IMG/VR virus record: IMGVR_UViG_3300047552_001669
Span: 1 to 24,403 of that record
DNA from: a virus
Reading direction: 5' to 3' (one strand)
DNA length: 24,403 nt
Part shown: piece after piece, positions 2,150 to 20,741 of the stretch
How the letters are laid out: every line of letters starts with the position of its first letter
How positions within the stretch are numbered: position 1 is the stretch's first letter
Program-made: the position numbers and the translations under genes
Notes under the pieces: model-generated
The model's input: only the letters and a program-made list of their open reading frames with translations
What the model was told of the DNA's origin: nothing
The model's database searches: none

Positions 2150-3192
2150 TAGTTTACAGAGTTTATCATATCAAATGCAGCGTCAAATGTCAGCTCGTAA
2201 TTGATATTCTTGTTATTAATAGACTTATACAATTCTACTGAGTTGGTGCTTAGGGTGTAAGGCAGTCCGTTTATTAGTATTCTGTCGCTCAAAAGTAGCT
2301 CTCGAACAACTTCCTTGTAGCTTTCTGGCACCCAACCTGAGTTCACTTTGATATTTGCTTTAGCGTTCGTGTTGAATGTCTGCACCTGAGGTTCTTGCTG
2401 CAAATAGAATGGCCAAGAGTTCGGATTCATTTTGTATGTACTAGTTTGCTTCGTCATGTTATCATAAGATGCCTTGAAGAAAAACGTAGATTGCCAAGCT
2501 CCATATCGATTGACAAAGCTGCATTCTACCACATCATATTTGCACTCCAAGTTTGGAGTCATTTTTACCGTGAATTTAGGTACGAGTGCGCCAGTGAGTA
2601 CTTCGAATATGTTTCCATCCTGCTCCCAAGTAGGTCGAACAAGTGGTACGTTTTTCATTCCTGCTAGACCTACAGATGAAGTTGAAACAGCTCCGGTAAC
2701 TAGATTAGTCCAGCGCACAAAGTATCCTGACGTTGCATAGAATGTAAGGAAACCAATTGAATTTCCGAAAGGGTTGTACTGATAGTTGTCAGAAGTCAAA
2801 TGATAGTCGCCCAAGTCTGGATTCGAACCATCCTCGAAGTATCCATATCCTGCAAAACCAAGATATTGCAGGTCGGTACCTACCTGAATAAAGCTAGTCG
2901 TTATCTTTTTGAATTTCTTGATTTTGACATTGACATATTGGTCCGTGTTAGCACTAACCAAACCAGTCACGGTCTGTAATTGGTTGTGGTTTATGTATTC
3001 GAGTATGTATGGAGATACATCATAGTAAGTCGCTGGATTCGAGGTACTTGGTATTTTTTTACTAAGCGTTTTTGTCGGACTAGCTGGAGCTGGACCAGTA
3101 CCATTCCAAATGTAAATTTGCAGTTTAGTTTCAACCTGACCTGCTTCATTGATTTCCACCATGTATGGAGACCTTGCGAATATCTTATCCAT
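2149..3192 (-). CDS. Virion structural protein (347 aa), tail-associated family of Bacteroidota phages
   Basis: The 347-residue protein starts at an ATG that overlaps the end of the gp10-like gene by 8 nt and ends with a TAA that overlaps the next ATG by one base. Its N-terminus (FARSPYMVEINEAGQVETKLQIYIWNG) resembles a structural family I recognise from Bacteroidota phages, with an 'ARSP-x-x-(I/V)-E-I-N-E' opening followed by beta-rich sequence and a Pro/Ser/Thr-rich loop (about residues 33-42). The remainder is rich in aromatic and Asn residues without signal peptide or membrane segment. Its location between connector-type genes and a very large structural gene supports a tail or baseplate role. 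No enzymatic motif is visible. Function beyond 'virion component' is inference. Confidence 0.65.
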   Translation of the reverse strand: MDKIFARSPYMVEINEAGQVETKLQIYIWNGTGPAPASPTKTLSKKIPSTSNPATYYDVSPYILEYINHNQLQTVTGLVSANTDQYVNVKIKKFKKITTSFIQVGTDLQYLGFAGYGYFEDGSNPDLGDYHLTSDNYQYNPFGNSIGFLTFYATSGYFVRWTNLVTGAVSTSSVGLAGMKNVPLVRPTWEQDGNIFEVLTGALVPKFTVKMTPNLECKYDVVECSFVNRYGAWQSTFFFKASYDNMTKQTSTYKMNPNSWPFYLQQEPQVQTFNTNAKANIKVNSGWVPESYKEVVRELLLSDRILINGLPYTLSTNSVELYKSINNKNINYELTFDAAFDMINSVN

Positions 3193-3733
3193 TTTTGAAT
3201 TTTTGTATTTCTTTTAACAATTCCTGAGCTGTTACTTGACCGTATGCTTCTGCTAGGTCTGGGGTTAATTTTCTAAGTAGGTTTTGGTATGGCTTCGTGA
3301 AAAAATATGTCGGCTCAATACCTTGACTATAGATAGAGCGAGCTATCAAAAATTTAAGTGATGCCCTTGACATAAAGCGACCTTTCTTGTCTCGTGGTGC
3401 AATACCTCTTTGAATGATCCATTTGTCCAAAGCTCTGCGCATTCCACCCTTGCCAGTTTTGGTACCAAATCGAAATGGACTTTTCGGTGCCTTTTGAATA
3501 CCATTCGGAACCCTGCTAGGATCTACACCTCGAACCCCTTGATCCTGAAACATTCCGTAATCTTCCATGAGGAAAACTAGCTTTGCGTTTCCATCCTTGT
3601 CAAATTGCAGGGTGTAGTCCAAAGATTTGTACAATTTACCGCTGGCATTTTTTTTCTTTTGGGTAAGGTTGGTCCGTGCCTGCTTAATTACAGACTTGGC
3701 AAATACTTGGAGCGTGTTCTGTACCTCGTTCAT
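3185..3733 (-). CDS. HK97 gp10-like head-tail/tail-completion protein
   Basis: The protein has 182 residues counted from the ATG at 3733, which overlaps the TAA of the upstream gene (TAATG); a TTG two codons further up would give 184. It opens with a helix (NEVQNTLQVFAKSVIKQARTNL), followed by basic loops, a segment with G-M-F-Q-D-Q-G-V-R-G, a Gly/Lys-rich loop (FRFGTKTGKGG) and a C-terminal helical part ending in a TYFFTKPYQNLL stretch. A 'YG-x-x-x-D-x-G' core, a basic loop and a 'P-T-x-F' element near the C-terminus are what I expect of HK97 gp10-like tail-completion proteins. Position between a small tail protein gene and tail genes fits. The assignment rests on pattern and context, not on a catalytic motif. 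Confidence 0.55.
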   Translation of the reverse strand: MNEVQNTLQVFAKSVIKQARTNLTQKKKNASGKLYKSLDYTLQFDKDGNAKLVFLMEDYGMFQDQGVRGVDPSRVPNGIQKAPKSPFRFGTKTGKGGMRRALDKWIIQRGIAPRDKKGRFMSRASLKFLIARSIYSQGIEPTYFFTKPYQNLLRKLTPDLAEAYGQVTAQELLKEIQKFKNG

Positions 3734-4185
3734 TAGCAAATTGACATATCGTTAGGAATAGTAACGGACATATTGATAGTCCATCCTGCTAGGTAGTTTT
3801 CAAAACGCTCACTGAATGATTCCATTGAGAACGAATTGAGCTGGATCATTTTGTCGTATAGATTTCCATGCAATAGACTAGCGTGAAGTCTGAGACAAGT
3901 TTGGTATGTATTGTTCAGTACGTCATGCTCATTGTCATTCCCAAAGAATATGTCTGTAGTCGGCTCCTTTGAGTAGTCAACAATATCCATGACAAAGATT
4001 AGGAAGTCAAATGTTACCGTGTTTGTGTTCGGATTGGCATTGAGTACCGTCATGTGTACAAGTGGGAAAATCGTTTGCTTAGCAATGTCTATAGCAGCTA
4101 TATCTCCATAGCTCGTTGTATTAACAAGTGGGTATGCAGCTATTTCGTTTCGTATTTCTTCGGTTACCCAGTAAAAAGCATTCAT
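3733..4185 (-). CDS. Small tail/connector protein (150 aa)
   Basis: A 150-residue protein whose ATG overlaps the upstream stop by 4 nt (ATGA) and whose TAA overlaps the next ATG. It begins with a helix (FYWVTEEIRNEIAAYP), then IDIAKQTIFPLVHMTV, FLIFVMDIVDYS, and DIFFGNDNEHDVLNNT, and ends ENYLAGWTINMSVTIPNDMSIC. I recognise the order 'D-x-x-K-Q-x-x-x-P-L-x-H', 'M-D-I-V-D', 'G-N-D-N-E-x-D-V-L-N' and 'F-E-N-x-x-A-G-W' from small proteins in the tail module of Bacteroidota phages, where they sit next to gp10-like genes. The alpha-beta layout would fit a tail terminator or connector ring, but no experiment known to me fixes this. No signal peptide or membrane segment. Confidence 0.55.
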   Translation of the reverse strand: MNAFYWVTEEIRNEIAAYPLVNTTSYGDIAAIDIAKQTIFPLVHMTVLNANPNTNTVTFDFLIFVMDIVDYSKEPTTDIFFGNDNEHDVLNNTYQTCLRLHASLLHGNLYDKMIQLNSFSMESFSERFENYLAGWTINMSVTIPNDMSIC

Positions 4186-4466
4186 CGTTTTAATTTATTT
4201 AGTTCTCGTTCGTGTCTCATTTGTTCAATCATGTCCTTTTCGATTTCATAGCTCAAAAATGTAAGTGCTGTAAAGACATTGATGGACGTAACTTGTTCAA
4301 ATTTTGTAATGTCTCCTTTAGCAACTCGGTAAATACTGTTATACCATCCCCATTTTTTGCTGAACTGTGCTGTTTCAGAGTAGTCATCAGCTCTGACTCC
4401 ATCTCCTTGCTCAATGTCTTTATAGAGCGCAGGAAATGATTGTACAATTCGTTTTCTAAAGTCCAA
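4182..4466 (-). CDS. -1 frame extension (94 codons), probably fused to the preceding frame by programmed frameshift
   Basis: This frame has no ATG: its first codon is a TTG formed by the last two T of a nine-T run plus G. It overlaps the preceding gene for 214 nt in the -1 frame. The residues AQFSKKWGWYNSIYRVAKG followed by DITKFEQVTSINVFTALTFLS look like a real conserved protein: a 'K-W-G-W-Y-x-x-I-Y-x-L-A-x-x-D-I-T-K-F-x-x-V-T' block that I associate with short reading frames in tail modules of Bacteroidota phages. It ends in a charged helix and its TGA overlaps the next ATG by 4 nt. If the ribosome shifts at the T run, the product is 163 residues of the upstream frame plus 94 of this one, 257 in all. 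Independent initiation at the TTG is the alternative. Confidence 0.6.
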   Translation of the reverse strand: MDFRKRIVQSFPALYKDIEQGDGVRADDYSETAQFSKKWGWYNSIYRVAKGDITKFEQVTSINVFTALTFLSYEIEKDMIEQMRHERELNKLKR

Positions 4467-4954
4467 AAAAAAAGCGAACTACCGAGTGCCACATCAAGTG
4501 GTGCGTATTGCATAAGCTCTGCAAATTCGGCTGTGCCAGTGTATTGCATGATTCTGTAGCTTCCGTTCTTTTTGGTTTCGATAGGTCGGTACATTACAGC
4601 CAGTGCCTTGTGGTATGTATCCCAAGACTCCATGTATTTCTCCAAGTCCATGTACTCACCCCATGACATATCTTCAATGTTAGGTATGAAACCAAATTCC
4701 ATGTCCTTGATTTTGAATGTCTTGACTAGCTCGGGGGTGCGTTGAAATATAGTAGCAATTTTGGTGACGAGGCGCATGACATCAGTGGCCTTTATCTGAG
4801 CTGCCTGCTGTAATTTCAAACCGCAGAACAATTCAATAGTTTTGTGGTTCAAGAATTCAGGATCGTTGCTGGTTTTGATCAGCTTCATGTACTCCTGATA
4901 AGTCCTGAGCGAAATTTCGTTCAATGATGTCGGTATTTTGATTTCAACCTGCAT
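4253..4954 (-). CDS. Tail assembly chaperone-like protein, zero-frame product
   Basis: The zero-frame product has 233 residues from an ATG 32 nt after the terminase large-subunit stop. Residues 1-160 are mostly helical (ISLRTYQEYMKLIK; ELFCGLKLQQAAQIKATDVMRLVTKI; MSWGEYMDLEKYM), like the N-terminal 'tail chaperone' part of frameshifted gene pairs. From codon 163, at a nine-T run, a second frame takes over with stronger protein character, so the last 70 residues of this frame may be the minor or terminated product. In lambda, G and T are related in the same way, but there they precede the tape measure; here the genes that follow are connector-like, so 'tail chaperone' is an inference from layout and overlap. 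No enzymatic motif is seen. Confidence 0.6.
   Translation of the reverse strand: MQVEIKIPTSLNEISLRTYQEYMKLIKTSNDPEFLNHKTIELFCGLKLQQAAQIKATDVMRLVTKIATIFQRTPELVKTFKIKDMEFGFIPNIEDMSWGEYMDLEKYMESWDTYHKALAVMYRPIETKKNGSYRIMQYTGTAEFAELMQYAPLDVALGSSLFFWTLENELYNHFLRSIKTLSKEMESELMTTLKQHSSAKNGDGITVFTELLKETLQNLNKLRPSMSLQHLHF
4464..4474 (-). other. Slippery run (C followed by nine T, then GG): candidate -1 ribosomal frameshift site
   Basis: On the minus strand the run is read CTT TTT TTT TGG in the zero frame. After the codon at 4468-4466, a one-base slip back gives TTG GAC, which enters the 94-codon open frame exactly at its first codon. T-TTT-TTT heptamers fit the X-XXY-YYZ form of classical slippery sites. 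Transcriptional slippage on the homopolymer would have a similar result. I could not identify a clear downstream stimulatory hairpin by eye. Confidence 0.55.
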
Positions 4955-4986: not shown

Positions 4987-6156
4987 TTACTTCAAGAAGT
5001 ATCTACCCTTGTTCGGATTCGCTAGGGTTTTCGATATATAGTATCGGGCAGCATCTATTCCGTGATTCCATTTGTCCTCAGGAATTGATTTGTTCGTCTT
5101 GTCAACCCATGAGTAGTTGTTGAATTCCTTAAGCAGATTCTTGCTTTCCTGCTCGATAATTAACTGGTATTCTAGCATGAGTGAAATACCTGCTGTTACA
5201 GAGCCAGTTCCCTTTTCAGCTGGCACAATATTCAGTCCACGTTGCTTCAATTCGAATATAAGTCGAACTTCCTGCGAGTCTCCGACAATTAAATTTCTAC
5301 CTGCATGAGCTAGGTTTTTGTCATACAATTCCCCAGTGCTGAGTCCGGTACTCCAAAAGCATTCTTTCATGTATATTTTCTTGCCTTTGGTGTCTATCCA
5401 AATTTTAATGAGTGTCGAAGGATCTGTAGAGAAACCGTAGTCCTGACCAAACCCCATGTGTTCAGCTATGTATTTACCATCCTTCTCAAAGTCCTCGTCC
5501 TTGAAAGGTAACGAAACGTAGTTGCTGAATATAGCTCCAGTCGGTTGCGCTCTATTACCAGTACCATATACCTTCCACCAATATTCGTTCGTTAATTTGC
5601 TCTCAATGTCATCAACCTGAGCTTTTGTCAAGTGCGGATTGTCTTTGTATGTCGTAATTAGTGGTGGGTACTTCTCAATGTATTTATCCAACCAATGCTC
5701 CTGAGGTAACGCAGGGTTGTAGTCGGCAATGATTCTATGCCTAGTACGAGGAAAAAGCTGGTCGATAGTTTCTTCAGGGAATTGATGCGCTTCGTTTATC
5801 CAAAGGATGTCCCTTGATCTACCGTGAATTTTGTCTGGGTTGTCTGCTCCGTAGTAGTTTATGTTGTTCCCATACAAGTTGTAAATGTGGTCTGTCTTGT
5901 TGTGAAACTCATCCCGATATAGTTGGTGTTTAATCAGGACATCTTTGAAGTCTTTCCATGCAGTTGCCTTCAATGCCGCATAAGTATCCCTGCATAAGTC
6001 AATTTCCAACCTAGCGTTCGGGTTTGTTTTACACAACCATATCAAATAGTAAATAAGTGAGTACGTTTTTCCTGAGCGTGTACCACCCTGCAACAAGGTT
6101 ACCCTATGATTTGGAACCTTTTTTTTTAGATATAGGAAGTTCGGGTTTGCTTGCAT
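4987..6156 (-). CDS. terL: Terminase large subunit (packaging ATPase/nuclease)
   Basis: This is the motor that pumps DNA into the prohead and cuts the concatemer. I choose the ATG at 6156, which overlaps the small-subunit stop (TGATG), giving 389 residues; a TTG one codon upstream is in frame. Counting from that TTG, the N-terminal ATPase shows Walker A GGTRSGKT at residues 25-32 and a Walker B ILWINE with the catalytic Glu at 123, followed by the ADYNPA coupling motif. The C-terminal RNase H-like nuclease shows an early Asp in GQDYGFS, a second in VGDSQ and a third in GIDAARYY. Size and motif order are normal for Terminase_3/6-type proteins. It directly follows the small subunit. A run of nine A near the start encodes Leu-Lys-Lys-Lys and is not needed for any frameshift. 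Confidence 0.95.
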   Translation of the reverse strand: MQANPNFLYLKKKVPNHRVTLLQGGTRSGKTYSLIYYLIWLCKTNPNARLEIDLCRDTYAALKATAWKDFKDVLIKHQLYRDEFHNKTDHIYNLYGNNINYYGADNPDKIHGRSRDILWINEAHQFPEETIDQLFPRTRHRIIADYNPALPQEHWLDKYIEKYPPLITTYKDNPHLTKAQVDDIESKLTNEYWWKVYGTGNRAQPTGAIFSNYVSLPFKDEDFEKDGKYIAEHMGFGQDYGFSTDPSTLIKIWIDTKGKKIYMKECFWSTGLSTGELYDKNLAHAGRNLIVGDSQEVRLIFELKQRGLNIVPAEKGTGSVTAGISLMLEYQLIIEQESKNLLKEFNNYSWVDKTNKSIPEDKWNHGIDAARYYISKTLANPNKGRYFLK

Positions 6157-6521
6157 CAATCTTCAAGTTCTTGATCCAACCAATCTGGGAGCTTCGATTC
6201 GCTATCTGCTACTAGATGCTCGCTTCTCTCCACATATCCACGACTTTTACCTTTCGTTTTTAGGTAGAATATAATCGAGGTTGTGTTTTCGCTCTTGATT
6301 TGTTTCAGTAGCATAGTCTCTGCCATATCCAACAGAGATTCGTTTACCTCTTCGCACTTGGCTTTGAAGTCCTCATCTTCCTTAAGCCATCGATAGTAAG
6401 TTTCTCGACTGATTAGTATTTTTTTGCAGGCAACCGATACATTACCAGCTGCCTGCTCAAATGCCTCTAGAAACAAGGCCTTTTTTTCAATATTTTTTTC
6501 GATGCTTTTTTTGTATGTCAT
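6156..6521 (-). CDS. terS: Terminase small subunit
   Basis: A 121-residue DNA-binding protein that recognises the packaging site and recruits the large subunit. Residues about 16-50 form a helix-turn-helix of the type found in phage terminase small subunits: AAGNVSVACKKILISRETYYRWLKEDEDF. A long helical oligomerisation segment follows (KCEEVNESLLDMAETMLLKQI), then SIIFYLKTKGKSRGY, a pattern I recall from the phBC6A51-like small terminase group, and an acidic C-terminal tail (LPDWLDQELED) that may contact the large subunit. Its TGA overlaps the large-subunit start. It lies 15 nt after the RarA-C-like gene, and both are probably driven from the promoter at 7180-7211. Confidence 0.85.
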   Translation of the reverse strand: MTYKKSIEKNIEKKALFLEAFEQAAGNVSVACKKILISRETYYRWLKEDEDFKAKCEEVNESLLDMAETMLLKQIKSENTTSIIFYLKTKGKSRGYVERSEHLVADSESKLPDWLDQELED

Positions 6522-7222: not shown

Positions 7223-7870
7223 TTATTTTGCGTTTATTCTGATCACTTCAAAAGCTTCAGCATATTTCGTGTTTGCTTGCACTCCATGACAAATAGCCAA
7301 ACTTTCGATATACTCTGCGCTGGCATAATTTCGGTGGCTTTGTGAAGTGTACTGAGATATTGCAGCTATCTTATTGGCTATGTCAATTTCTTCAACGTGT
7401 ATGAATAATTGATAGTTGAATTTATACAGATTCCATGCAAGCTCATATCCAAATATCGTTTGGTGTTTAAACGCTCTCAATGATTCCTCATGAATAACCT
7501 GATGGTCTTGGTGTATGTCGTGTCCTGAGGGAATGAAAACAATGTCAGGTTGCACCCTAGTTTTGTAGTGCAGCAACAAATCGAGTATCATTTGTCTAGT
7601 TTCATGGAATTTTCGCACTTGAAAGTGGTGTATAAACAACCTATTTTTGTGCAGTCCTAGATCCTGAGAAGCCAATTTGATTTCTTCTACCAACCTATTG
7701 TTTTGAGTTCCGTGTTCAATGATATTTGCAGCCGAGCTAAAAGCTACATGATATACTTCATGCCCATCCCTGATCAATTTGCTTATGCTGGCTCCAAGTC
7801 CAAATTCTCCATCATCCGTGTGAGGAGACAATACTAGTATTTTTTGATTCTGTCCTAATTTCATGTCCAT
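7223..7870 (-). CDS. PIG-L/LmbE-family N-deacetylase
   Basis: A 215-residue zinc-dependent deacetylase of the type that removes acetyl groups from N-acetylglucosamine-linked substrates (PIG-L, MshB, BshB). The first motif is SPHTDDGEFGLGA (residues 15-27), with H17, D19 and D20 in the metal/catalytic site; the second is HDIHQDH (117-123). Length and spacing are normal for the family. No signal peptide, so it acts in the cytoplasm. It overlaps the upstream WbqC gene by 59 nt, and a second ATG at 7864 is possible. It is the last gene of a four-gene overlapping cassette. I infer the substrate is an amino sugar placed by the neighbouring glycosyltransferase, either on DNA or on a nucleotide-sugar. 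The fold assignment is firm, the substrate is not. Confidence 0.88.
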   Translation of the reverse strand: MDMKLGQNQKILVLSPHTDDGEFGLGASISKLIRDGHEVYHVAFSSAANIIEHGTQNNRLVEEIKLASQDLGLHKNRLFIHHFQVRKFHETRQMILDLLLHYKTRVQPDIVFIPSGHDIHQDHQVIHEESLRAFKHQTIFGYELAWNLYKFNYQLFIHVEEIDIANKIAAISQYTSQSHRNYASAEYIESLAICHGVQANTKYAEAFEVIRINAK

Positions 7871-8480
7871 TTATTTCGTGTTGTTTTTCAATATAGTACA
7901 ATATTGTTTTGTTCGAGAATTTCTGAGTATAGTCAGTGAATTCCACTTTGATTCCGTTTTTTTCAAATGCTTCCAAATCCAAATATTTGTTCGATGCACC
8001 ACCAGATAGGTAAGTGTCTCCACCCAAATATTGAACAATGTCAAGTATCAGATCCCCTTTGCTTCCTTGCTTCGGAATGTCGCTGGAGTAAACTAGCGGT
8101 GTATTGATTCCTAGTATTTTTCTAGCTTTCAATATAAAGTCGATGTTTAAGTCAGCTAGCTTAAAGTACTCTATTTCAAATAGTTCTTCAAAGTCAAAGT
8201 AAGCATTTGGGTACAATAGCTTTATCGAATTTTCAAGTTTCTTGTGAATTTGTCTGTAGTCACTAATTTCCACATCGCAAATTAGCTGTCCAAATTTTTT
8301 TTTGACTGGTATCGTAAACCAAAATGGATCAACCTTGTCATTACCAAACATGACTCGATTTGTATACCCACCTGAGCTGTATTGCACATCGTCAAGTATT
8401 ACAAAGAAGTCTGCTTCACGCATTTTCTCAAAGTATCCACCCCATGCAAGAAAGTTTGGCTGGTGTATCGCTATTTTCAT
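7812..8480 (-). CDS. WbqC-family protein
   Basis: A 222-residue protein with the WbqC-family opening IHQPNFLAWGGYFEKMREADFFVILDDVQYSSGGYTNR (given here as consecutive motifs HQPNFLAWGGYF, ADFFVILDDVQY and GGYTNR), followed by FWFTIPVKK. It ends with a segment in which LGGDTYLSGG and a Tyr/Lys-rich stretch are seen. WbqC proteins occur in O-antigen and amino-sugar decoration loci; their reaction is poorly defined to my knowledge, with acylation or aminoacylation of amino sugars a common suggestion. The ATG overlaps the glycosyltransferase stop (TGATG), and the C-terminus overlaps the deacetylase by 59 nt. Next to a deacetylase that would expose an amine, an amine-modifying role is attractive, but this is inference. 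Confidence 0.85.
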   Translation of the reverse strand: MKIAIHQPNFLAWGGYFEKMREADFFVILDDVQYSSGGYTNRVMFGNDKVDPFWFTIPVKKKFGQLICDVEISDYRQIHKKLENSIKLLYPNAYFDFEELFEIEYFKLADLNIDFILKARKILGINTPLVYSSDIPKQGSKGDLILDIVQYLGGDTYLSGGASNKYLDLEAFEKNGIKVEFTDYTQKFSNKTILYYIEKQHEINGHEIRTESKNTSIVSSHG

Positions 8481-9232
8481 CAGAAAGGTACTTTTAAGGT
8501 CTTTTCATAAGGGTGCTTATGCTTCCTGAGGTTTTGGTTGTTTTTCTTCACGATAGCGTCTCCAAATAGCTCTTTTAGGTATTCGTAGTCATTCTTTTCT
8601 GTTTCAATCGATCTGAATTCAGCCATACCACCTTTGGAAACAAAAGTTCCTTCCTTACCCCAAGCATAGTATCGCTCATCCACAAACAATACTCGATTAA
8701 AGTGAGCATTCAATCCGCTTAGAAAGTAATCAAGTCCTGATACGCAGCGGTCCGTGATTTTCATTTGAAAGCCATCCAAGATACCAATAACTCCACCACT
8801 GGCAATACCAGTAATTCTAAATGGTTTGTGTCCTGAGTAAGCAACCGGATTCATTTCCTTGCTGAAGGCAAACAATTTCGCTCCGAGCTGTTGAGCTGTA
8901 TACGCTGTCGATTGAATAATATCGTAAGCTGTTTCAGGATCAATTTCGAATTTTTTGTCTTTGAGGTCTAGTAGGTAGTTCCTACGCAGGTGGTCAATGT
9001 CGTCGCCAATGATTGCAAAGTTTTTAAAGTTAGCGTGTATCCATCGATATTTTGCCGATAGACCAACCACGCTGTCAGGATGCACTATCAATTCGCATTC
9101 GGGGTTGTATTTATAGTACTCGTCATACTGGCTTTCTGCTATACAAATAGCCGCATTTGCGAACGCATGTTTACTGCGCACTGAGTCAGCTCTTTTGTGG
9201 CTAACAATGATCAATTTAACCAACTCTTTCAT
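8480..9232 (-). CDS. GT-A-like glycosyltransferase, resembling TET-associated (TAGT/GREB1-type) enzymes
   Basis: I take the ATG at 9232 (250 aa, overlap of 17 nt with the ParB-like gene) rather than a longer frame from 9271. The protein starts with a Rossmann-type strand KLIIVSHKRADS, followed by PDSVVGLSAKYRWIHANF and NFAIIGDDIDHL; DDID at 77-80 would be the metal-binding D-x-D of a GT-A fold. Later elements are ITGIASGGVIG, SGLDYFLSGL and ERYYAWGKEGTF. 'G-L-S-x-x-R-x-x-I' followed by 'D-D-D-I' reminds me of the TET-associated glycosyltransferases described from phages that hypermodify DNA bases. No TET-type oxygenase is visible in the window, so the acceptor could equally be a hydroxymethylated base made from nucleotides, or a protein. 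Distant similarity only. Confidence 0.6.
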   Translation of the reverse strand: MKELVKLIIVSHKRADSVRSKHAFANAAICIAESQYDEYYKYNPECELIVHPDSVVGLSAKYRWIHANFKNFAIIGDDIDHLRRNYLLDLKDKKFEIDPETAYDIIQSTAYTAQQLGAKLFAFSKEMNPVAYSGHKPFRITGIASGGVIGILDGFQMKITDRCVSGLDYFLSGLNAHFNRVLFVDERYYAWGKEGTFVSKGGMAEFRSIETEKNDYEYLKELFGDAIVKKNNQNLRKHKHPYEKTLKVPF

Positions 9233-9848
9233 CACGTACTTTTGATTTGAATTTTTCAAATGAAACCACACGACCTATTCCAACCCTGCTGTTTTTGTAT
9301 GATTTTTCTACTTCCATATCAAAGAAGTTGTCAAGGTATGCTATGTCAATTTCGTTGGTGGCATAAATAATAACGTAGTCATATTTTTCACTCAAAATTG
9401 GCACAATAGGGTACACTGGCTCTTCATCAATAGTTTTGATTGTTTCGTTTGGATCTACGACAATAGGGAAGTCAGATTCGATAAAACCCCAGCTTGTCAA
9501 ATCCTCTTTGTTGAAGAAAGCTCCGAGAATGTCAAAGTCAAATTTACCTCCGTTTTTATTCATTCGGATATTTAACTGCTTTTCCTCTTTAAGTGTCAAG
9601 TTCATTTCCAAACATGGCACCTCAGTCATTCCAAGTTGCTTACATGCCTTAAGTCTTTGGTGTCCAGAAATAATTACTCCAACACGATCTTCGTGGGTAT
9701 TAATGATAATTGGCTCAGTAAGTCCGAAGATACTGATGCTGTCAATCAAATCATCCATTTCTTTTCGAGAAATTTTTCTCGGGTTGTACTCGCTTTCAAT
9801 CAGTTGTTCCACTGGGTACACCTTGATTTCCATTTTTGTTGCGTCCAT
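9216..9848 (-). CDS. ParB/sulfiredoxin-like domain protein with C-terminal extension
   Basis: A 210-residue protein with the ParB N-terminal nuclease-like fold: VEQLIESEYNPRKIS (13-27), a helix, GLTEPIIIN, and the nucleotide-binding motif SGHQRLKACKQLG with GHQR at 62-65. The following LNIRMNKNGGKFDFDIL plus L-T-S-W-G-F is typical of ParB-like proteins linked to phage DNA methylation or modification genes. The C-terminal half (YPIVPILSEKYDYVIIYATN ... SYKNSRVGIGRV) is an extra alpha-beta domain I associate with Bacteroidota phages. No ParA or centromere-like repeats are seen, so plasmid partition is unlikely. Its position one gene before a glycosyltransferase suggests it works in DNA modification, perhaps by selecting sites or using ATP/CTP. 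That last step is inference. Confidence 0.8.
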   Translation of the reverse strand: MDATKMEIKVYPVEQLIESEYNPRKISRKEMDDLIDSISIFGLTEPIIINTHEDRVGVIISGHQRLKACKQLGMTEVPCLEMNLTLKEEKQLNIRMNKNGGKFDFDILGAFFNKEDLTSWGFIESDFPIVVDPNETIKTIDEEPVYPIVPILSEKYDYVIIYATNEIDIAYLDNFFDMEVEKSYKNSRVGIGRVVSFEKFKSKVRDERVG

Positions 9849-20709: not shown

Positions 20710-20741
20710 AAAAAAAAATGCCACTCTACATGAATGGCATT
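20710..20741 (-). terminator. Intrinsic terminator after the late/lysis block
   Basis: Perfect 7-bp stem AATGCCA/TGGCATT (20717-20723 with 20735-20741), 11-nt loop, followed on the minus strand by a run of seven or more T (to 20711). It lies about 20 nt after the metallophosphoesterase stop and before the promoter copy at 20660, so it separates two transcription units. Confidence 0.85.

Follow-up and report, generated by a model that had tools for sequence, protein, structure and literature searches.

A conserved T run that probably joins two overlapping frames into a tail-chaperone-type pair in phages of likely Bacteroidota hosts

In the virus fragment studied here, a frame starting with ATG (frame A) lies directly after the large terminase gene and runs through nine consecutive T residues, where it is overlapped by a second frame (frame B) in the −1 register. 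This arrangement raised the question of whether A and B are two genes, one damaged gene, or a single gene of which some of the product is shifted into the second frame and, in the latter case, whether RNA polymerase or the ribosome slips and what the two products do. These points were addressed for the window, by which we mean the whole 24.4-kb stretch analysed, and for its relatives in other phages.

The T run and the frames that meet at it

An earlier note on this DNA had described a run of nine T joining two frames that overlap by 214 nt, with a slip at codon 163. Indeed, the coordinates and lengths of this arrangement were borne out (run at 4473-4465, minus strand), and the overlap and the slip codon were both as described (Table 1). 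Frame A reads the run as CTT TTT TTT TGG, while a step of one base back after codon 163 leads into frame B, read as TTG GAC TTT AGA. Frame B is all-helical and contains a KWGWY motif. As the note had stated, it has no ATG; however, it does not begin exactly at the slip, since it is open in the 5′ direction to about 4478 and the upstream stop is located 15 nt before 4466.

Table 1. Features of the A/B locus and its surroundings in the window
Feature	Position	Strand	Description
Source stretch			24.4-kb virus fragment; main genes on minus strand
Frame A	4253..4954	−	233 aa, ATG, 0 frame, gpG-like short product
N-terminal part common to both products	4466..4954	−	A codons 1-163; mixed helix/strand domain
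T9 slippage run (putative)	4465..4473	−	C TTT TTT TTT G; in-phase heptamer T TTT TTT
Frame B	4182..4466	−	94 codons, −1 frame; C-terminal part of the putative fused AB
0-frame tail of A past the run	4253..4464	−	overlaps B
Third-frame stop TAG	4456..4458	−	6 nt after run
Large terminase subunit gene	4987..6159	−	upstream neighbour; PF04466, PF17288
Next gene, 150 aa	3733..4185	−	phrog_30964; conserved neighbour
184-aa gene	3185..3739	−	phrog_29822

We propose that the T run very probably shifts the reading frame part of the time, and that one gene thereby has a short and a long form. The commonest outcome would be translation of A to its own stop, yielding 233 aa. In a fraction of cases slippage at T9, equal to the addition of one extra U, would allow continuation in the −1 frame, and we infer that a product AB of about 257 aa is made in this way, with the same N-terminal domain and a different, helical C-terminal part carrying KWGWY. 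In lambda, the G part binds the tape measure and the T part binds the tube protein (PMC5009743). By analogy with gpG, A would coat the tape measure protein, while AB, made in smaller amounts, would bring in the subunits of the tail tube by analogy with gpGT, and the A:AB ratio set by the slip would matter in tail assembly. All in all, we regard it as probable that A and AB are a chaperone pair of the lambda G/GT type that arises by slippage on the T run, with a slight preference for the polymerase as the slipping machine.

Conservation of the run and selection on both frames

Relatives were collected by protein searches with A, with B and with additional divergent queries, the run itself not being a search condition. 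This resulted in 562 loci with a match, of which 556 had both A and B parts. The 436 unique junctions were grouped by shared 10-mers into 194 clusters at a target of roughly 90% identity; clusters consist of related phages, and the counts are not independent events. B was in the −1 frame of A in 433 of the 436 junctions. The run was T9 in 387 and T10 in 45 of them, while T11, T12, T8 and the complete lack of a run were each seen once. The earlier note had suggested checking whether the run and the overlap are kept in homologous phages, and this proved to be so: at least nine T were present in 434 of the 435 unique junctions having a run, the exception being the T8 of locus L261. The most distant relatives share about 24-30% protein identity with the A/B of the window. 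Elsewhere in the 194 cluster loci, the strand concerned has just 27 runs of at least nine T in 1.21 Mb, and many of these follow hairpins that resemble terminators. The A/B junction pattern is far beyond chance.

The isolated Nonlabens phages P12024L and P12024S (genus Inhavirus) likewise have a homologous pair, genes 40/41 and 38/39, with T9 and an open −1 frame. Their records were annotated without a frameshift, and the pair is only about 26% identical to A of the window. Since the matching genome contigs were MAGs titled Bacteroidetes or Flavobacteriaceae, the hosts are likely Bacteroidota.

Divergence was measured over 743 pairs that were 72-93% alike before the run. At 4-fold sites it amounted to 0.322 before the run, whereas in the overlap it was depressed to 0.102 for B and 0.092 for A; for the part of B past A's stop, a value of 0.228 was obtained. 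This depression in the overlap suggests that B and the tail of A past the run are both real protein. The constraint is not explained by RNA folding, since single-sequence z-scores for a stem-loop after the run had a mean of about 0 in 38 representatives, and folding of the alignment past the run gave a structure conservation index below 0.15. Neither approach, in which pseudoknot-free folds were modelled, revealed a conserved stem, and an Rfam search for an RNA structure after the run returned nothing.

Polymerase or ribosome at the run

Provided that the fusion is made, we slightly prefer slippage by RNA polymerase over ribosomal −1 slippage. The closest competitor, to which we give somewhat less than an even chance, is that the same two products arise by ribosomal −1 frameshifting on T TTT TTT, with nine T being demanded by an aliphatic-Phe-Phe-Leu stretch. 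This heptamer is in phase in every run of at least nine T, whatever its phase, and it is also intact in L261, which has just eight T; the latter case favours the ribosome. Moreover, ribosomal frameshifting is what PMC5009743 describes for phage chaperones, and no chaperone pair made by polymerase slippage was encountered in the papers searched. The length of T9 was considered as an argument for the polymerase in the commonest phase, but this argument was tempered, as the heptamer and the aliphatic-Phe-Phe-Leu residues together already yield T9. Since T9 in the common phase follows from these two demands, the weight for the polymerase rests on the junctions with a shifted phase and on the avoidance of runs.

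In several relatives the run has moved in codon phase, with a change in the flanking residues, serine being tolerated on the flanks. The junctions concerned read AGT TTT TTT TTT CAA (L126), AGC AGT TTT TTT TTG TCG (L232) and GTG TTT TTT TTT CTG (L510). That the run is nevertheless re-formed at a length of at least nine T argues against the ribosomal reading, as does the failure to find a downstream structure. Two further features of the junctions point the same way. No run of seven occurred among the 435 junctions, and TTC was found at the second Phe codon in none of the T9 junctions, although TTC represents about 30% of the Phe codons elsewhere and would at this position be silent in A and Leu-preserving in B.

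For the avoidance of runs, genes at the 194 cluster loci were compared with shuffles of their synonymous codons. A9 was five-fold depleted, with 8 observed versus 44.5 expected, whereas A8 was reduced to only 0.67-fold of the shuffle expectation. For T9, 3 were observed versus 13.8 expected. The values for T runs fell gradually with length (0.75, 0.53, 0.36, 0.22), so that the A runs show a step at nine and the T runs do not. A depletion of A and T runs of nine or more in genes is expected if such runs slip at transcription. In many bacterial genomes, selection against A/T runs likewise becomes visible from nine nucleotides on, which has been ascribed to transcriptional slippage (PMC1088944), and slippage on Tn has been described with n>8 (PMC3711429). 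For Shigella mxiE, slippage of 20-30% is cited in PMC4256274.

In 178 of 191 clusters, the remaining frame is closed by a stop 6-8 nt past the run, compared with about 43% expected from codon usage alone (0.735 x 0.579). Such a stop would at once end the translation of transcripts with a wrong U count; in Thermus dnaX, a nearby stop ends transcripts of the wrong length (PMC1088944). As proof of polymerase slippage, however, the stop was dropped. It is ambiguous because the two overlapping proteins already force TTTAGR, through Leu in frame A and Phe-Arg in frame B.

The lambda G/GT logic invoked by the earlier note is strongly supported for the −1 joined pair, but as regards a ribosomal slip, several features fit slippage by RNA polymerase at least equally well. 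We only tentatively extend the polymerase reading to these Bacteroidota phages as a whole group, whose tail chaperone pairs would then arise from slippage of RNA polymerase on at least nine T rather than from ribosomal frameshifting. If this is true, the ratio of the two chaperone products is set at transcription. Our literature search yielded no paper on such a site in Bacteroidota phages, the literature searched leaving out most subscription journals. The locus would offer a clean natural test of whether RNA polymerase, and not the ribosome, can produce a conserved ratio of the G/GT type. In hosts that rarely use Shine-Dalgarno signals, a homopolymer without a stimulator may be a simpler means to fix the ratio of products.

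A second poly-T site, T10 (GAT TTT TTT TTT AA), was observed 2.5-2.9 kb upstream of the A/B run, within one ORF and between its ATPase-like and acetyltransferase-like parts. The run starts at position 966 in L042, 197 in L086, 840 in L181 and 946 in L431, these being all four clusters with the motif. The −1 frame stops immediately past this run, and slippage would give a dnaX-like truncated product.

Tail role, known systems and remaining alternatives

As the window ends before the tape measure gene, the position of that gene was read from relatives, in which it is located about four to eight genes downstream of A/B in the same block. In relative G003, the terminase region is followed by A/B, two small conserved genes for proteins of 151 and 183 aa, two large ones for 345 and 784 aa, and the tape measure gene (phrog_9483), past which a head protease, a capsid candidate and the portal are encoded. 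P12024L has a similar block; gene 50 of this phage specifies the tape measure, gene 43 gives a weak match to tail completion/Neck1 and gene 06 encodes the portal. Thus, A/B belongs to the tail block and precedes the tape measure gene, with other genes in between. The place right after the terminase had been called unusual, and it is, but with the tape measure gene of the relatives downstream in the same block it is less odd than had been thought.

In several relatives (L207, L517, L523, L527, L539, L543, L553 and L563), a terminator-like hairpin followed by T9 was noted about 510-540 bases before the A/B run. With this element immediately ahead of gene A, a separate transcription unit may start there with A/B. 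The corresponding place in the window revealed no terminator-like site.

An alignment that combined fused, A-only and B-only rows misaligned B and was left out; the naturally in-frame relative L294 (254 aa) was folded instead. In its model (pLDDT 79.5, pTM 0.71; 36 sequences), the N-terminal domain is of mixed helix and strand and a long helix spans the junction, beyond which a linker of poor prediction quality leads to the C-terminal part, which is helical. B modelled alone was all-helical (pLDDT 79.7). Neither a PDB fold search with the A/B models nor a second look produced a meaningful solved-structure match, and sequence searches of PHROGs, Pfam and PDB sequences gave nothing useful with regard to known chaperone families. 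The family corresponds to phrog_32199 and is otherwise unnamed. A search of BFVD yielded 42 viral proteins with E 0.001 or better, the Nonlabens homologue included, and all were uncharacterised or unnamed; the match to a named tail assembly chaperone, of Arthrobacter phage Kitkat, was weak (E 0.2). Five proteins of 226-267 aa (A0A516L5A8, A0A516L611, A0A6J5N0W0, A0A6J5SVK3 and A0A6J7WDG4) were matched by both the fused and the B-only models, which shows that single-ORF versions of A+B occur. Together with the conserved run, the frame relation and the two overlapping frames, these single-ORF homologues strongly support the −1 joined pair.

The tail-chaperone role that had been proposed for this pair is supported by architecture and gene order, but a match to a known chaperone family is absent. 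We infer this function by analogy, and it is unlikely, though worth weighing, that the fusion is real while its products act at a different step, for instance in head-tail joining or scaffolding. Besides the lack of a family match, such a role would suit a gene that comes after the terminase and before tail-completion-like genes; the Nonlabens homologue of the 184-aa phrog_29822 protein, for instance, weakly matches tail completion/Neck1 (phrog_5). On the other hand, chaperones are usually encoded in this way, as a short and a long product with a common N-terminus ahead of the tape measure gene, and G003 has no other chaperone candidate beside its tape measure gene.

A chaperone-like pair joined by a −1 shift is a known kind of arrangement. 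Lambda gpG/gpGT and the pairs of other long-tailed phages also have a shared N-terminus, a longer −1 product and a distinct C-terminal part, and gpG/gpGT likewise belongs to the tail gene block and precedes the tape measure gene. In contrast to lambda, the site described here is a homopolymer of at least nine T instead of a mixed heptamer, the selected 0-frame tail is long (about 140-265 nt past the run), the pair is right after the terminase and four or more genes from the tape measure, and no sequence or solved-fold match was detectable. What differs is the uniform long homopolymer with no stimulator found, the long selected 0-frame tail and the unusual gene position. Nine-base homopolymers are also the sites of transcriptional slippage in Shigella mxiE (T9) and Thermus thermophilus dnaX (A9), the latter resembling the present site in having stops close to the run in other frames. 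However, these are cellular genes, whereas here the putative slippage would provide a structural-assembly protein of a phage with a second domain. The site appears to be a broad recoding site, unannotated in the records examined, in abundant phages of probable Bacteroidota hosts, and for annotation this means that two 'hypothetical' genes should be joined.

It is very improbable that A and B are instead separate genes that overlap incidentally, reinitiation or an internal start allowing B to be translated by itself. The P12024L and P12024S records do list two hypothetical proteins, the second with an ATG that overlaps A's stop; such an ATG-started second gene had been named in the earlier note as evidence against a frameshift, but T9 and the open −1 frame are still present there. 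TTG is the junction codon in about half of the T9 clusters and could be taken for a start, but in the other half the codon is TTA or TTC. Furthermore, B lacks an ATG in 156 of 160 loci, its conservation reaches as far as the run, and it is part of a single ORF in the homologues mentioned above.

Slightly less probable still is heritable on/off switching, in which replication slippage in the run would make phages alternate between A and AB. In-frame A+B copies with a longer run do exist, as the earlier note had envisaged, namely L294 (478-1242, T10) and L153 (1106-1858, T11), yet they are just 2 of 436, and the run is held at a length of 9-10 without spreading widely. In a third in-frame copy, L421 (2989-3684), the run is deleted. 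These three copies are either natural fusions or homopolymer or assembly faults. As a general explanation, assembly or homopolymer error or a decayed gene is refuted. Although two contigs are in frame through one extra T and one has no run, hundreds of contigs and two isolate genomes agree in run and frame, with selection on both frames.

Two minor observations concern other parts of the window. A terminator-like hairpin followed by T9 is located at about 20710-20738 on the minus strand, after the gene at 21642-20761. In addition, genes for a PIG-L deacetylase, a WbqC-like protein, a TET-associated glycosyltransferase and a ParB-like protein stand in a row at 7223-9848 (minus strand), possibly forming a DNA base modification cassette.
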